From assembly GCA_029218405.1 (NCBI GenBank), contig JAQXRG010000070.1, positions 1 through 54,880 on the forward strand: 54,880 nt of DNA, written 5' to 3'. The stretch comes from Bacteroidales bacterium (GTDB taxonomy: Bacteria; Bacteroidota; Bacteroidia; Bacteroidales; Bacteroidaceae). Shown here in pieces: positions 32,674 to 39,334 of this stretch. The notes beneath the pieces are model-generated. The model was not told where the DNA came from and ran no database searches. It worked only from the letters and a program-made list of their open reading frames with translations. Position numbers and translations under genes: made by a program. Within the stretch, counting starts at the first letter, position 1. Each line of letters opens with the position of its first letter.

Positions 32674-32721
32674 GTGATAAAAGAGAGCAAAAAACAGAAA
32701 AACCTTTGCTCCAGACAAGGC

Positions 32722-32768
32722 TAATCCGTAAAAATGGTGTTACTTTACGCACTCATTTTTACGGATTA
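32722..32768 (+). promoter_or_regulatory. perfect 15-bp inverted repeat directly before cysQ
   Basis: TAATCCGTAAAAATG (32722-32736) pairs exactly with CATTTTTACGGATTA (32754-32768) around a 17-nt loop, ending six bases before the cysQ ATG. A weak -7-like box, AACCTTTG, lies at about 32701-32708, so a transcript would begin before the hairpin. It could be the terminator of the upstream permease, an operator, or a leader structure for the sulfation operon. Confidence 0.5.
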
Positions 32769-32773
32769 TCTTT

Positions 32774-33592
32774 ATGGAGAAAGACTTATTGCTGACAGCT
32801 ATCCGCGCCGCGCTGAAAGGAGGAGCGGCCATCATGGAAGTGTATGCCGACCCGAACGCGGACTTTGAGATAGAGAGAAAGGCGGACAACTCGCCCCTCA
32901 CCATCGCCGACCGGCGTTCCCACCAGGCCATCGCAGAGGAACTGGCCCTGACACCCTACCCCGTCCTGAGCGAGGAAGGCAAGGAGACAGCCCCCGAGGT
33001 CCGCCAGGCCTGGGAGACGCTCTGGGTGGTGGACCCGCTGGACGGGACCAAGGAATTCATCAAGCGCAACGGTGAGTTCACCGTCAACATCGCCCTCGTG
33101 CGCCACGGAGCCCCCGAGGCGGGGGTCATCTACGTGCCGGTGACCCGCGACCTCTACTTCGCCGACACCCAGACCGGCGCCTACAAGCTGGAAGGCATTG
33201 AGCGGCTCGATGCCGGTGATACCGTGGACAGCCTCATCCGCCGTTCCACCCGCCTGTCGGCCGCCGGCACGCACGAAGGGTTCGTAGTGGTCGCCTCCCG
33301 CTCGCACCTGAACGAGGAGACCGCCGCCTACATCGAGCGCATGAAGCAGTTGCACCCGCAGGTCAGCACCGCCTCGAAAGGCAGCTCGCTGAAGTTCTGC
33401 CTGGTGGCCGAAGGAAAGGCCGATGTCTATCCGCGCTTCGCGCCGACCATGGAATGGGACACGGCAGCCGGACACGCCATCGTGCGGGCAGCCGGACAGG
33501 AGGTCTATCAGGCTGCTACCGGAGTGCCCTTGCAGTACAACAAAGCCGACCTGCTCAATCCTTGGTTCATTGTGGAGGGGAAACGCTCATGA
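32774..33592 (+). CDS. cysQ: 3'(2'),5'-bisphosphate nucleotidase
   Basis: A 272-residue Mg-dependent, Li-sensitive phosphatase that turns PAP (left after sulfotransfer) into AMP. The IMPase-fold motifs are seen: KADNSPLTIADRRSHQAI, VLSEEG (metal Glu), WVVDPLDGTKEFI (the DPLDGT motif), FTVNIALV and the end motif MEWDTAAGHAIVRAAG. It leads a six-gene operon, and its stop overlaps the next start (ATGA), so it is coupled to the SLC13 permease. Its place with PAPS-making enzymes and a sulfotransferase says it relieves PAP inhibition of sulfotransfer. Confidence 0.94.
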   Translation: MEKDLLLTAIRAALKGGAAIMEVYADPNADFEIERKADNSPLTIADRRSHQAIAEELALTPYPVLSEEGKETAPEVRQAWETLWVVDPLDGTKEFIKRNGEFTVNIALVRHGAPEAGVIYVPVTRDLYFADTQTGAYKLEGIERLDAGDTVDSLIRRSTRLSAAGTHEGFVVVASRSHLNEETAAYIERMKQLHPQVSTASKGSSLKFCLVAEGKADVYPRFAPTMEWDTAAGHAIVRAAGQEVYQAATGVPLQYNKADLLNPWFIVEGKRS

Positions 33593-35130
33593 CGGCCCAA
33601 GGAATCATCGTACTCGTCTCGCTCATCGGTATGCTGGCCGCCCTCATGGCCGACAAGATGCGCCCTGGCATGATCCTGTTCTCGGTGCTGGTCATCTTTC
33701 TGTGCACCGGCATCCTGACCCCGCGCGAGATGCTGGAAGGGTTCAGCAACAAGGGCATGATGACCGTCGCCCTGCTCTTCCTCGTGAGCGAGGGAGTGCG
33801 GCAGAGCGGCGCGCTGGCCCTATGGGTCAAGAAGCTGCTGCCGCAGAAGAAGACCACAGTCTTCCGCGCGCAGCTGAGCATGCTGCCCGGCGTGGCCTTC
33901 ATCTCGGCGTTCCTGAACAACACGCCTGTAGTGGTCATCTTCGCCCCCATCCTCAAGCGGTGGGCCAGCACCGTCCGCCTGCCTGCCACGTACTTCCTCA
34001 TCCCTCTGTCCTACGTCACCATCCTCGGGGGCATCTGCACCCTCATCGGCACCTCGACCAACCTGGTGGTGCACAGCATGATTCAGGAAGCGGGACTACC
34101 CGGGTTCACGATGTTCGAACTGGGGAAGGTGGGCGTGTTCATCGCGCTGGCAGGCATCCTCTACCTGTTCGTGTTCTCGACCCGCCTCCTGCCCGCAGAC
34201 CGTCCGGACAACGCCCTGGCGGAAGACAGCCCTTCCTCGCTCCACGTGGTGGAAGCTGTGCTGGGCGCCCGCTTTCCCGGCATCAACAAGTCGGTGAAGG
34301 AATTTGACTTCACACGTCACTACGGAGCGGAACTGAAGGAACTGCGCCGGGGAGGCTCGACCTATACGCGGTGGGACGACCTGAGCTTCCGCGAGGGAGA
34401 CACGCTTGTGCTGCTCGCCGATGACAGCTTCCAGCGAACCTGGGGAGAGTCATCCGTCTTCATCATGCTGGCCAACGGAAAGGACAGCGAGCCCGTAGGA
34501 CGGAAAAAGCGCGGACTCGCCCTGCTGCTGCTGGTCCTCATGATTGCCGGTGCCACGGTGGGCGAGCTGCCGGACGTGAAGGCACTGCTGCCGGACGGCG
34601 TGCGGCTCGACATGTTCTTCTTCGCCGCCATCACCACCGTCATCATGGCCTGGACACACATCTTCCCGCCCCGCAAGTACACCAAGTACATCTCGTGGGA
34701 CATCCTCATCACCATCGCCTGCGCGTTCGGTATCAGCAAGGCCATGGAGAACTCCGGACTGGCCGACTGCATCGCCGCCTACATCATCAACCTGAGCCGC
34801 CACTACAGCCCCTACGTGTTGCTGGCGGTGATGTTCCTCATCACGAACGTCTTCACCGAACTGATTACGAACAATGCCGCGGCCGCCCTCTCCTTCCCCA
34901 TTGCCCTCTCGCTGTCCGCCCAGCTCGACGTGAGCCCCATGCCGTTCTTCGTGGTCATCTGCATGGCGGCCTCGGCCAGTTTCAGCACCCCCATCGGCTA
35001 CCAGACCAACCTGATTGTGCAGGGCATCGGTAACTACAAGTTCACGGACTTCGTGCGCGTAGGCCTGCCGCTCAACCTCATCACCTTTCTTATCTCCGTA
35101 TTTGTCATTCCGCAGATATGGCCGTTCTAA
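33589..35130 (+). CDS. SLC13/DASS family anion permease (probable sulfate importer)
   Basis: From ATG 33589 (MTAQGIIVLVSLIGMLAALM) this is a 513-residue membrane protein. It has two SLC13-type repeats with the re-entrant anion-binding motifs SAFLNNTPVVVIFAPI and NVFTELITNNAAAALSFPIA, each followed by a GTSTNLVV / TPIGYQTNLIV segment. A hydrophilic RCK_C-like domain sits in the middle at ~240-300 (RWDDLSFREGDTLVLLADDS). Many relatives carry two RCK_C domains and are ~590-600 residues; this one has one. Given cysQ upstream and cysCDN downstream, sulfate is the likely substrate. It overlaps cysQ by four bases and stops 22 bp before cysC. Confidence 0.88.
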   Translation: MTAQGIIVLVSLIGMLAALMADKMRPGMILFSVLVIFLCTGILTPREMLEGFSNKGMMTVALLFLVSEGVRQSGALALWVKKLLPQKKTTVFRAQLSMLPGVAFISAFLNNTPVVVIFAPILKRWASTVRLPATYFLIPLSYVTILGGICTLIGTSTNLVVHSMIQEAGLPGFTMFELGKVGVFIALAGILYLFVFSTRLLPADRPDNALAEDSPSSLHVVEAVLGARFPGINKSVKEFDFTRHYGAELKELRRGGSTYTRWDDLSFREGDTLVLLADDSFQRTWGESSVFIMLANGKDSEPVGRKKRGLALLLLVLMIAGATVGELPDVKALLPDGVRLDMFFFAAITTVIMAWTHIFPPRKYTKYISWDILITIACAFGISKAMENSGLADCIAAYIINLSRHYSPYVLLAVMFLITNVFTELITNNAAAALSFPIALSLSAQLDVSPMPFFVVICMAASASFSTPIGYQTNLIVQGIGNYKFTDFVRVGLPLNLITFLISVFVIPQIWPF

Positions 35131-35152
35131 CTACCTTAATATATTATAGAGT

Positions 35153-35764
35153 ATGACTGAACCAACGAACCACATTTACCCTGTCTTCGACCGCCTGCTG
35201 TCCCGCACGGACAAGGAACAGCTCCTGCACCAGCGGGGACTGATGGTCTGGCTGACCGGCCTCAGCGGCTCGGGCAAGAGCACCCTGGCCATTGCCTTGG
35301 AACGCGAGCTGCACCGGCGCGGCATCCTGTGCCGCGTCCTCGACGGCGACAACATCCGCAGCGGCATCAACAACAACCTGGGCTTCTCGGCCGAAGACCG
35401 GAAGGAGAACATCCGCCGCATCGCCGAAGTGGGAAAACTGTTTGTCAACACCGGCATCGTCACCCTCGCCGCCTTCATCAGCCCCACACGGGAGATGCGG
35501 GCGATGGCCGCCCACATCATCGGCGAAGCGGATTTCCTGGAAGTCTATGTCAGCACGCCGCTGGCCACCTGCGAACAGCGCGACGTGAAAGGACTGTACG
35601 CCAAGGCCCGTAAGGGAGACATCAGCCACTTCACCGGCATCTCCGCGCCTTTCGAGGCCCCCCTGCACCCCGCCCTCAGCCTGGACACCTCGGTGCTGGA
35701 CATCGAGCAGTCGGTCGGACGGCTGCTTGAACTTGTAATACCTAAAATAACGCTTACCAAATGA
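35153..35764 (+). CDS. cysC: adenylylsulfate (APS) kinase
   Basis: A 203-residue kinase that phosphorylates APS on the 3' position to make PAPS, the universal sulfate donor. Walker A GLSGSGKS lies at 36-43; further motifs are [20 protein letters not shown] (DGDxxR), the [12 protein letters not shown] block, [14 protein letters not shown], and [28 protein letters not shown]. All expected residues are present. Its stop overlaps the cysD start, so it is coupled to the ATP sulfurylase. Confidence 0.95.
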
Positions 35765-36675
35765 TGAAAACCTCTTATCCACTGAGCCACCTGAAAGAAC
35801 TCGAAGCCGAGTCCATCCACATCATCCGTGAGGTGGCCGCCGAATTTGAGAACCCCGTGATGCTCTACAGCATCGGCAAGGACTCGTCGGTCATGGTGCG
35901 GCTGGCAGAGAAGGCGTTCGCCCCCGGCAAGGCCCCCTTCCCCCTGATGCACATCGACTCGAAATGGAAGTTCAAGGAAATGATTCAGTTCCGCGATGAC
36001 TACGCCCGCCGGCACGGATGGCGGCTGATCGTGGAGAGCAACCAGGAAGCCTTCCGGACCGGAGTGGGACCGTTCACCCACGGCAGCAAGGTGCACACCG
36101 ACCTGATGAAGACACAGGCGCTGCTGCAGTCCCTCGACAAGTACCGGTTCGACGCCGCCTTCGGGGGCGCCCGCCGCGATGAGGAGAAGTCCCGGGCGAA
36201 AGAGCGCATCTTCTCCTTCCGCAACGAGTTCCACCAATGGGACCCCAAGCACCAGCGGCCCGAGCTGTGGGACCTCTACAACACCCGCATCCGCAAGGGC
36301 GAGAGCATCCGCGTGTTCCCGCTCAGCAACTGGACAGAGCTGGACATCTGGCAGTACATCCGGCTGGAACAGATTCCCATCGTCCCCCTCTACTTCGCCA
36401 AGCGGCGGCCGGTGGTCAACATCGACGGACAACTCATCCTGCCCGACGATGACCGTCTGCCCGAGCAGTACCGCGACAAGATAGAATACCGGAACATCCG
36501 CTTCCGCACCCTGGGATGCTGGCCGCTGACGGGCGCCATCGAAAGCGAGGCCGACACCATCGAGAAAATCGTGGAGGAAATGATGACTACCACCAGGAGC
36601 GAACGCACCACCCGGGTCATCGACTTCGACCAGGAAGCCAGCATGGAGGAAAAGAAACGGGAAGGCTACTTCTGA
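35761..36675 (+). CDS. cysD: sulfate adenylyltransferase subunit 2 (ATP sulfurylase small subunit)
   Basis: A 304-residue protein with the PP-loop pyrophosphatase motif [13 protein letters not shown] near residue 40, then [18 protein letters not shown], the conserved [20 protein letters not shown] and [11 protein letters not shown]. With CysN it adenylates sulfate to APS. The end (EKKREGYF) is the family's typical C-terminus. Two ATGs in a row (35761, 35764) can serve; the first overlaps the cysC stop. cysN follows after 52 bp. Confidence 0.96.
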
Positions 36676-36727
36676 CACCTCCTCCCCACAGACCGACTTT
36701 AACTATTCATCACCATTTCCACAACGT

Positions 36728-38188
36728 ATGACAACAGAAAACCTATCGATACAAGAATTCCTCGACCGCGACGAGCAGAAGAACCTGCTCCGCCTGCTCA
36801 CGGCCGGGTCGGTGGACGACGGAAAGTCCACCCTCATCGGACGACTGCTGTTCGACAGCAAGAAAATCTATGAAGACCAACTGGACGCCCTGCGGCGCGA
36901 CAGCCAGCGCATGGGCAACGCCGGCGGACACCTCGACTACGCCCTGATCTTAGACGGACTGAAGGCGGAACGCGAACAGGGCATCACCATCGACGTGGAC
37001 TACCGCTACTTCTCGACCAACCGCCGCAAGTTCATCATCGCCGACACGCCGGGACACGATCAGTACACCCGCAACATGATTACGGGCGGCTCCACCGCCA
37101 GCCTCGCCATCATCCTGGTGGACGCGCGCACCGGTGTCATCACCCAGACCCGCCGCCACAGCTACATAGTGTCGCTGCTGGGCATCCGCCACGTCGTGCT
37201 GGCCGTCAACAAGATGGACTTAGTGGACTTCTCGCAGGACGTGTTCCAGCGCATCGTGGACGACTACCGCGCCTTCCTCCAGCCCCTGGGCATCCCCGAC
37301 CTGCTGTGCGTGCCCATCTCGGCGCTCGACGGCGACAACGTGGTGGAGAAGTCGCCCCGTACCCCCTGGTACGAAGGCCCCTCGCTGCTGGAGCACTTGG
37401 AGAACGTGCGGATAGAGAACGACCCCAACCTGACCGACTTCCGCTATCCGGTGCAGTACGTGCTCCGTCCCGACCTCGACTTCCGGGGCTTCTGCGGAAA
37501 GGTGGCCTCCGGCATCGTGCGCCAGGGCGACGAGGTGGTGGCGCTCCCCTCGGGCAAACGGACGCACGTCCGGCGCATCGTCACCTACGAAGGCGACATC
37601 GACGAAGCCTTCCCGCCCATGTCCGTCACCTTGACCCTGGAGGACGAGATTGACGTGTCGCGCGGCGAGATGCTGGTACACCCCGACCGCCTGCCCCAGC
37701 GAGGACGGAACATCGAGGCCATGCTGGTATGGATGGACGAGGAGCCAATGGACACCGGCAAGTCCTTCTTCCTGAAGCAGACCACCAACACCAGCCGCAC
37801 GCGCATCGACAGCATCCGCTACAAGGTGGACATCAACACGATGGAGCAGCTGAGCGTGGAGAACGGGCGGCTCACCCCCGACACCCTCCCCTTCACGCTC
37901 AACCAAATCGGCAAGGTGACACTCACCTCGTCGAAGGAGCTGTTCTTCGACCCCTACGCGATGAACCAGGCGACCGGTGCCTTCATCCTCATCGACCCCA
38001 TCAGCCACACTACCTGTGCCGTGGGCATGATAACCGGCAGCGTGTCGGACCAGGAAGTACGCCGGGCCTCCGGGCTGCCCGTCATCGACCTGTCCCGCCT
38101 TGGCATTGACGCCTCGCACCACGAAGCCATCCGGACCGTCGTGAAGGAACTGGCACGGCAAGGCATCGCCGTCGAACTGCGCGACTGA
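36728..38188 (+). CDS. cysN: sulfate adenylyltransferase subunit 1 (GTPase subunit)
   Basis: A 486-residue EF-Tu-like GTPase whose GTP cleavage drives APS formation by CysD. G1 is [20 protein letters not shown] (about 26-45), G2 [17 protein letters not shown]3 [14 protein letters not shown] and G4 NKMDLVDF. Domains II and III follow ([20 protein letters not shown]). There is no C-terminal APS kinase fusion, in line with the separate cysC. Length is normal for stand-alone CysN. Confidence 0.96.
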
Positions 38189-38227
38189 CACAACGCACCT
38201 ACTGACTGACACTAACCACCAACCGCT

Positions 38228-39334
38228 ATGGGATTACTGGACTTTAACAAACTGCCTATCAACACACTGGTGGGAGCCGACTGGCAGACCTTCCACCGCA
38301 TCACCGCCGGACAGGCCATCGGCCCCGGCTACCGCAACAAGTACCGGCTGACGAAAGCCGTCTGCCGCCTGCTGTCGCTGCTCAAACCCCTGCAGGACCG
38401 TCGCTACCAACAGCTGCTGGCCGACCGGCCGCTGGAGCACGCGCCGGTCTTCATCCTGGGGCACTGGCGCAGCGGAACCACCTTCATGCACAACGTACTC
38501 TCGTGCGACCGGCACTTCGGCTACAACACTACCTACCAGACCGTCTTCCCCCACCTCATGATGTGGGGACAACCGTTCTTCAAGAAGAACATGAGCTGGC
38601 TCATGCCCGACCAACGCCCCACCGACAACATGGAGCTGGCCGTTGACCTGCCGCAAGAGGAAGAGTTTGCACTGACCAACATGATGCCCTACACGTACTA
38701 TAACTTCTGGTTCCTGCCCCAGCGGATGAACGAGTACGCCGACAAGTACCTGCTGTTCGACGGCATCACGCCGGAGGAGCTGAAGACCTTCGAGGAGATG
38801 TTCACCAAACTCATCAAGATTTCGCTGTGGAACACCCACGGCACGCAGTTCCTGAGCAAGAACCCGCCGCACACCGGCCGCGTGAAGGAGCTGGTGAAGA
38901 TGTTTCCCGATGCCAAGTTCATCTACCTGATACGCAATCCCTACACCGTGTTCGAATCGACCCGCAGCTTCTTCACCAACACCCTCCGTCCGCTACAGCT
39001 GCAGGACATCAGCGACGCGCGGCTGCAGGAGAACATCCTGTCCGTTTACAGCAAGCTCTACCACAAGTACGAGGCCGACAAGCACCTCATTCCCAAGGGG
39101 AATCTGGTGGAAGTCCGGTTTGAGGACTACGAGCGGCACCCCTTCGGGATGACCGAGGACATCTACCGCCGCCTGTCCCTGCCGGGCTTCGACACGGCAC
39201 GCACGGCCATCCAGTCCTACGTGGACAAGCTGAAAGGCTACCAGAAGAACCGTTACGCATACAAGCCCGAGACGGTGGAGCTGGTCGAACAACACTGGTC
39301 GTTCGCCCTGCGTCAGTGGGGCTACTCGCGCTGA
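38228..39334 (+). CDS. PAPS-dependent sulfotransferase family protein
   Basis: A 368-residue sulfotransferase closing the operon. The 5'-phosphosulfate loop is visible as LGHWRSGTTFMHN (79-88), and the 3'-phosphate site as IRNPYTVFESTRSFF (235-249). An internal His/Lys-containing segment, FLSKNPPHTGRVKELVKMF, matches the sulfotransferase_3 fold. There is no signal peptide, so it works in the cytosol. In B. thetaiotaomicron an equivalent gene at the end of the same operon is reported to sulfate steroids such as cholesterol. Whether this enzyme has that substrate, or makes a sulfolipid or sulfated glycan, cannot be said from sequence. Confidence 0.85.
   Translation: MGLLDFNKLPINTLVGADWQTFHRITAGQAIGPGYRNKYRLTKAVCRLLSLLKPLQDRRYQQLLADRPLEHAPVFILGHWRSGTTFMHNVLSCDRHFGYNTTYQTVFPHLMMWGQPFFKKNMSWLMPDQRPTDNMELAVDLPQEEEFALTNMMPYTYYNFWFLPQRMNEYADKYLLFDGITPEELKTFEEMFTKLIKISLWNTHGTQFLSKNPPHTGRVKELVKMFPDAKFIYLIRNPYTVFESTRSFFTNTLRPLQLQDISDARLQENILSVYSKLYHKYEADKHLIPKGNLVEVRFEDYERHPFGMTEDIYRRLSLPGFDTARTAIQSYVDKLKGYQKNRYAYKPETVELVEQHWSFALRQWGYSR

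Follow-up and report, generated by a model that had tools for sequence, protein, structure and literature searches.

We find that the window, by which we mean the whole 54,880-nucleotide stretch analysed here, part of an 83%-complete Phocaeicola assembly, carries a six-gene operon that, judged from its sequence, is a Phocaeicola copy of the already described BT_0411-BT_0416-type sulfation system and no new kind of system. We put the probability at about 80% that this operon serves to make PAPS, to transfer its sulfo group, likely to a steroid 3-hydroxyl, and to remove the PAP left behind, with no reductive drain found. All six reading frames are open and lie on the + strand between 32774 and 39334, preceded by a candidate operator:

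32717..32773, no strand assigned: inverted repeat, candidate operator; 20-nt arms at 32717-32736 and 32754-32773, 90% complementary, 17 nt between them
32774..33592, +: cysQ, 3'(2'),5'-bisphosphate nucleotidase, which removes PAP, the by-product of sulfotransfer; TIGR01331 265 bits (cut-off 228.8), Inositol_P PF00459
33589..35130, +: permease of SLC13/DASS type (CitMHS), proposed to take up sulfate; CitMHS PF03600 247.5 bits (cut-off 31.9), 2.6e-73; PF00939 2.5e-15
35153..35764, +: cysC, APS kinase; TIGR00455 235.5 bits (cut-off 138.7), PF01583 4.2e-63
35761..36675, +: cysD, ATP sulfurylase small subunit; NF009214 498 bits (cut-off 413)
36728..38188, +: cysN, ATP sulfurylase large (GTPase) subunit; NF003478 684 bits (cut-off 590)
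38228..39334, +: PAPS-dependent sulfotransferase, predicted orthologue of the Bacteroides BT_0416-type steroid sulfotransferase; Sulfotransfer_3 PF13469 144.4 bits (cut-off 27), 8e-42

Gene order and the match to the Bacteroides cluster

The first-pass annotation described a tightly packed six-gene set with ATGA overlaps at two junctions, and both the ORF coordinates and a direct reading of the sequence confirm it: cysQ overlaps the permease gene at 33589-33592 and cysC overlaps cysD at 35761-35764, while the remaining gaps measure 22, 52 and 39 bp. The overlap with cysQ follows from taking the ATG at 33589 as the permease start; the mechanical ORF listing starts earlier, at 33454. The permease exceeds the Pfam cut-offs for CitMHS and Na_sulph_symp, and its relatives of solved structure include VcINDY and SLC13 chains, but its score against the NCBIfam DASS model is 91.8 bits, under the cut-off of 198.6, and sulfate is for this reason a putative substrate, proposed from Pfam family membership. 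For the sulfotransferase, the profile search matched no NCBIfam model.

The same six-gene order is shared by 94 of the 119 loci with a sulfotransferase match (loci of 5 kb or longer, some genomes occurring twice), two of the 94 having a second APS-kinase-like match after cysN, and comparison with genome G013 shows purifying selection on each of the six genes (dN/dS 0.05-0.21); on these grounds we reject chance clustering. Same-order loci include those of B. fragilis, B. xylanisolvens, B. faecis, P. vulgatus ATCC 8482 and P. coprocola. Identity to the B. fragilis proteins is 65-86% across the six, and the sulfotransferase is 77% identical to its counterparts in both B. fragilis and P. vulgatus. 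In the nine variant loci that we read by eye, the inserted genes differ from locus to locus (in P. plebeius, a gene that by eye looks esterase-like sits between cysN and the sulfotransferase), and we found no constant extra partner among these nine; we therefore count no additional gene as part of the system.

Le et al. 2022 (PMC9417993) report that B. thetaiotaomicron BT_0416 yielded cholesterol sulfate both in vitro and when present in E. coli, and that the activity was lost on deleting the gene; they describe BT_0411-0415 as adjoining putative PAPS genes and the clusters of B. ovatus and B. fragilis as identical. The first-pass annotation had equated the gene set seen here with this steroid-sulfating operon, and gene order and an orthologous sulfotransferase bear this out, both being judged on B. 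fragilis, B. faecis, B. xylanisolvens and P. vulgatus as proxies for BT_0416. The likeness thus extends to gene set, to order (by way of B. fragilis and other Bacteroides loci), to a sulfotransferase of about 77% identity, and to an operon without reductive genes. The window differs in belonging to another genus, in lacking the promoter palindrome of Bacteroides, and in coming from a genome with a second sulfotransferase, and its activity and acceptor are predictions from sequence. It differs also in its flanks: upstream of the operon lies an amino-acid permease gene, and downstream a lacZ-type gene that G013 has there too. Animal cytosolic sulfotransferases (SULT2B1 and kin) share PAPS-dependent transfer and possibly the same product, cholesterol sulfate, but the protein of the window belongs to Sulfotransfer_3 (144 bits) and matches Sulfotransfer_1 weakly (32 bits).

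The upstream region

The inverted repeat ends at the base preceding the cysQ ATG, and its loop contains TTACTTTAC, which we take to resemble a Bacteroidetes -7 box. A similar repeat is present in the nearest relative (L186), and none with arms of at least 9 was found in 20 other Phocaeicola upstream regions. In four Bacteroides genomes the exact pattern AAACTTT-N10-AAAGTTT-N0-2-TAnnTTTG occurs once per genome, always before this operon, and it is found in neither of the two Phocaeicola genomes searched; an operator common to the window and Bacteroides was thus looked for and not found. Cholesterol is reported to raise expression of Bt_0412 and Bt_0416 (Le et al. 2022, PMC9417993); because the Bacteroides promoter palindrome was not found here, such cholesterol-responsive expression cannot be assumed for this operon. 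The window contains no Rfam match at or above the gathering score of its family, and a sigma-70 and terminator scan, which does not cover Bacteroidetes promoters, gave nothing above shuffled sequence there.

Sulfation versus cysteine synthesis

Assimilatory sulfate reduction combines cysDNC with cysH and cysIJ. The operon shares with that pathway ATP sulfurylase, APS kinase and PAP phosphatase, and cysD, cysN, cysC and cysQ are assimilation genes in other bacteria, so one might suppose that the PAPS genes here feed cysteine synthesis with the sulfotransferase as a passenger. We consider this very improbable and largely refuted. Unlike an assimilatory set, the operon ends in a sulfotransferase; its six genes include neither CysH nor a sulfite reductase, a profile search of the 83%-complete assembly found no match to the sulfite reductase family (NIR_SIR), and the second match there to the PAPS-reductase domain PF01507 is the tRNA enzyme MnmA. 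At 83% completeness, this one assembly does not by itself prove that a reductive pathway is lacking.

The wider family gives the same answer. Among 248 Bacteroidaceae genomes, 106 have the sulfotransferase, 107 have APS kinase, 105 have both and 140 have neither, so that PAPS genes and sulfotransferase are jointly present or absent in 245 (Fisher P 5e-67, with kinship ignored). The exceptions are one genome with the sulfotransferase and no APS kinase (G333, in 320 contigs) and two with APS kinase and without this sulfotransferase (G024 and G204), both of which have another one. Every sampled Bacteroidaceae genome with APS kinase thus has some sulfotransferase (107/107), and the PAPS genes are therefore usable as a marker of sulfation ability. 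The sulfite reductase family, in contrast, occurs in six of the 248, one of which (G439) also has the sulfotransferase (Fisher P 0.24, not significant). The first-pass claim that PAPS is made here for sulfation and not for cysteine is upheld by the absence of a reductive branch from operon and 83%-complete assembly; the supply is probably not dedicated to one enzyme in this organism.

The acceptor and a second sulfotransferase

The proposed pathway would begin with sulfate import by the SLC13-type permease, after which CysDN would convert sulfate and ATP to APS and CysC would phosphorylate APS to PAPS, both being established reactions of these enzyme families. Next, the Sulfotransfer_3 protein would transfer the sulfo group of PAPS to a hydroxyl on the acceptor, and CysQ would degrade PAP. 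Because the B. thetaiotaomicron orthologue acts on cholesterol, the likeliest acceptor would be a steroid 3-hydroxyl, for example that of cholesterol encountered in the gut, and by this analogy it is our best guess for the protein of the window. Identity of 77% between orthologues is insufficient to fix the acceptor.

In a tree of 77 rows, the sulfotransferase groups with sequences of Bacteroides, Phocaeicola and Mediterranea in a clade of 33 rows (99/89), which is nested in one of 62 rows (99/98). Nineteen columns are invariant in 71 aligned rows, including G78, R81, G83, H88, R130, D133, E144, K211, R236 and S244, of which G78, R81, G83, K211, R236 and S244 presumably belong to PAPS-binding motifs, and the protein departs from the consensus of at least 95% at three of 368 residues (56 clade rows, itself included). 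It had been suggested that phylogeny would place the enzyme by acceptor class: it does group with the sampled Bacteroides relatives and with no other class, but the tree contains no characterised enzyme of another class, which makes this a weak test.

It is also possible, if somewhat unlikely, that the natural substrate is a lipid or some other compound of the bacterium's own making, and that the enzyme, being broad, sulfates sterols as a side activity. Of 37 complete Phocaeicola genomes sampled, 33 have the sulfotransferase, which would also fit a self-made acceptor. The same would go for its occurrence in Bacteroides reticulotermitis and in 21 of 247 genomes sampled across the order (own included; identity of at least 56%), for the purifying selection on the operon, and for three genomes that keep both sulfotransferase and APS kinase although the two genes have come apart (G313, G325, G337). 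Yet the characterised relatives described in Le et al. 2022 (PMC9417993) and in reviews act on steroids, and no lipid-synthesis gene is a constant neighbour, either in the window or in the nine loci read by eye. A glycan or peptide acceptor, which may be what the second sulfotransferase locus or G204's lasso-like cluster uses, we regard as decidedly unlikely for this enzyme. Bacteroidaceae do have further PAPS-linked sulfotransferases, at a SusCD/GH123 locus (L239, L264) and within a lasso-like cluster (L227), and the esterase-like gene of P. plebeius would fit such an acceptor, but those enzymes fall outside the clade of the window's sulfotransferase (the second sulfotransferase of its own genome and that of G024) or mainly match another Pfam family (G204), and the genes neighbouring the operon in the window are not constant companions of the sulfotransferase.

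Steroid sulfation remains our preferred reading for the enzyme of the operon, and PAPS in this organism probably has a second consumer. Contig C48 of the assembly carries a second, distant gene of the Sulfotransfer_3 family, in a locus SusC-SusD-ASST-ChrA-sulfotransferase-GH123-DUF5107 (whole-genome searches used PF13469 and named protein queries). Of 61 Phocaeicola genomes, 2 gave a match to this second sulfotransferase, and the relative G024 has this locus and the PAPS genes, with no steroid-type enzyme found. We tentatively entertain, at less than even odds, that the operon supplies PAPS more generally, for sulfation of a steroid (or a lipid of the bacterium itself) and, through the second sulfotransferase, of a glycan or other SusCD-imported molecule. 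If true, this would mean that a polysaccharide-type locus can add or relay sulfate instead of removing it. A literature search with little coverage of subscription journals found no paper linking polysaccharide utilization loci of such bacteria to a sulfotransferase and an arylsulfotransferase. The same kind of search found nothing linking a Phocaeicola sulfotransferase to cholesterol sulfate. Mice colonised by B. thetaiotaomicron alone had less cholesterol sulfate and lower serum cholesterol when the strain lacked BT_0416 (Le et al. 2022, PMC9417993). Through the operon of the window, this Phocaeicola lineage would join the likely makers of cholesterol sulfate.

Coupling of PAPS synthesis to sulfotransfer

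The six genes and two ATGA overlaps reported by the first-pass annotation were confirmed, and profile searches assigned all six genes to the expected families:

32774-39334, + strand: cysQ, SLC13-type permease, cysC, cysD, cysN and sulfotransferase
38228-39334, + strand: the Sulfotransfer_3 sulfotransferase, last gene of the operon

They lie on contig C70, the window itself, of a 2.71 Mb Phocaeicola assembly (188 contigs, 83% complete). The permease is a clear CitMHS/SLC13-type protein, yet it scores below the NCBI DASS cut-off; we infer from its sequence that its substrate would be sulfate. All six genes are under purifying selection, with dN/dS of 0.05-0.21 against the relative G013, and of 0.03-0.09 for four genes against G042 (two with saturated dS).

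The operon had also been read as making PAPS without a reductive branch, and this holds in the 83%-complete own genome, in which PF01077 has zero matches and the PF01507 matches are CysD and one further protein, MnmA. Among 248 Bacteroidaceae genomes (our own and others sought at a completeness of at least 95%), the sulfotransferase is found in 106 and APS kinase in 107, with both in 105 and neither in 140 (Fisher P 5e-67, kinship ignored). At least three genera (g1, g2 and g167) contain both states, presence and absence, and among the 23 g2 genomes that lack the sulfotransferase, APS kinase is matched in G204 only. The sulfotransferase occurs without APS kinase in G333 alone, an assembly of 320 contigs, and APS kinase without the window-type sulfotransferase in G024 and G204 alone, both of which encode another sulfotransferase (a different Sulfotransfer_3 protein in G024, a Sulfotransfer_1 protein in G204). 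Both genes are also retained where they are separated on one contig (G313, G325) or lie on different contigs (G337). Sulfite reductase-type proteins are present in 6 of the 248 genomes, together with the sulfotransferase only in G439, on a contig other than the operon's; avoidance between the two is not significant across this sample (P 0.24).

Likeness to the Bacteroides cholesterol-sulfating cluster

According to excerpts of Le et al. 2022 (PMC9417993), BT_0416 of B. thetaiotaomicron forms cholesterol sulfate from cholesterol both in E. coli and in vitro, its deletion abolishes activity, it adjoins the putative PAPS genes BT_0411-BT_0415, and identical clusters exist in B. ovatus and B. fragilis. 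An excerpted 2025 review adds that activity was also confirmed in Parabacteroides merdae by Yao et al. Because B. thetaiotaomicron is not among the 80 named loci compared, of 245 relatives, we used B. fragilis (L134), in which gene order is the same as in the window and identities are 65% for cysQ, 74% for the permease, 72% for cysC, 86% for cysD, 70% for cysN and 77% for the orthologous sulfotransferase. The proposed match to the B. thetaiotaomicron steroid operon is upheld; the finding is real, its main point was read correctly, and the system is one already described in related bacteria.

Of 119 loci that contain a sulfotransferase match, 94 keep the six-gene order. Twelve of the remaining 25 have the sulfotransferase alone, eight of these being distant relatives at 26-42% identity (L105-L112) and four being orthologues without PAPS genes in the available stretch (L087, L088, L177, L187); the other 13 carry partial gene sets, several clipped by locus ends. 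G013 has the sulfotransferase closest to the window's (86%). A tree built from 77 sulfotransferases places the window in nested groups, first one of 7 Phocaeicola rows (100/99), next one of 33 rows that takes in Bacteroides and Mediterranea (99/89), and finally a 62-row clade (99/98); long branches make placement unsure for L092, L108, L109 and L110, and L092 is drawn inside the clade with a branch length of 4.2. Against the at least 95% consensus of 56 clade rows, the window differs at three residues only (253, 335 and 339). L092, on contig C42 of G013, is a second sulfotransferase of this closest relative, about 41-43% identical to the window's.

Further sulfotransferase loci and operon variants

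Our genome has an additional Sulfotransfer_3 gene on contig C48, in a run of SusC, SusD, an ASST-family protein, a ChrA-family transporter, the sulfotransferase, a GH123-type protein and a DUF5107-TPR protein:

L239 3432-18186: second locus, own genome (contig C48)
L264 2456-17011: second locus, G024

The run is shared with G024 as seven pairs at 49-79% identity, and its sulfotransferase is matched in these 2 of 61 Phocaeicola genomes and in none of the other 59. G024 retains cysQ, the permease, cysC, cysD and cysN; a steroid-type sulfotransferase was found neither beside these genes nor elsewhere in its 95%-complete genome. The GC of C48 (0.55-0.61) is in keeping with the window's (0.53-0.65), but the contig may still have been mis-binned into our assembly. 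The C48 sulfotransferase would probably use PAPS made by the operon, and loci of this type are perhaps PUL-like loci that add or relay sulfate.

Permease identity to the window's falls to 59-60% in nine Phocaeicola operons (L245, L249, L250, L254, L256-L259, L263) and is 77-79% in the remaining 11 of the 20 compared, while the adjoining cys genes are alike throughout; the transporter of the nine may have been replaced in place or have changed fast. Variable insert genes, named by eye from sequence, and other PAPS-linked loci are as follows:

L228 10088-12726: MBOAT-like and SGNH-like proteins, between cysD and cysN
L176 8114-8959: GDSL-type esterase, between cysN and sulfotransferase
L085 4631-5920 (reverse-complement coordinates): DUF1080-like protein, after the permease and ahead of cysC
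L100 8384-10273; L101 9638-10183 (both in reverse-complement coordinates): APS-kinase-like stretch after CysN, 34-36% identity
L227 5553-14796: lasso-like PAPS locus of G204, genus g2

The APS-kinase-like stretch, in frame with CysN in L100, is perhaps a degenerate fused domain; both operons have a normal cysC. In L227, cysD and a fused cysN-cysC, accompanied by a TauE-type permease, adjoin a lasso-peptide-like set (Asn synthase, Transglut_core3, PqqD) that includes Sulfotransfer_1 and HPr-kinase-like genes; this locus perhaps makes a sulfated RiPP and supplies the PAPS for it. Some lasso clusters carry sulfotransferase and HPr kinase genes, as an excerpted paper notes (PMC4289311).

Upstream repeats and proposed function

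Of 94 upstream regions of operons that begin with cysQ, 56 have a palindrome, AAACTTT-N10-AAAGTTT, directly ahead of TAnnTTTG (at most one mismatch per arm, a spacer of 11 in one region, related genomes counted apart), for example in the Bacteroides loci L076, L119 and L134. The same arrangement arose in 0 of 4700 mononucleotide shuffles, which do not keep dinucleotides. The exact form occurs once per genome, always before cysQ, in all four Bacteroides genomes searched (G447, G492, G453, G465), and is absent from the two Phocaeicola genomes searched (G000, G011). Paired changes (AAACTAT/ATAGTTT) are seen in L128 and L169. The Bacteroides palindrome is a candidate operator of a single-target regulator. 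Among 20 further Phocaeicola upstream regions, 15 have GTTATTTTAC shortly ahead of cysQ, often within a short inverted repeat. The window has its own repeat, resembled only by that of L186 among the loci inspected:

32717-32773: inverted repeat (arms of 20 nt) whose last base adjoins the cysQ ATG, with TTACTTTAC in the loop

Gene set, conservation, coupling and selection are direct observations, and beside them stands a proposed pathway in which sulfate, probably taken up by the permease, would be converted to APS and then PAPS, the sulfo group would be transferred to an acceptor, and PAP would be removed. By analogy with the orthologue BT_0416, the acceptor in this organism would be cholesterol.
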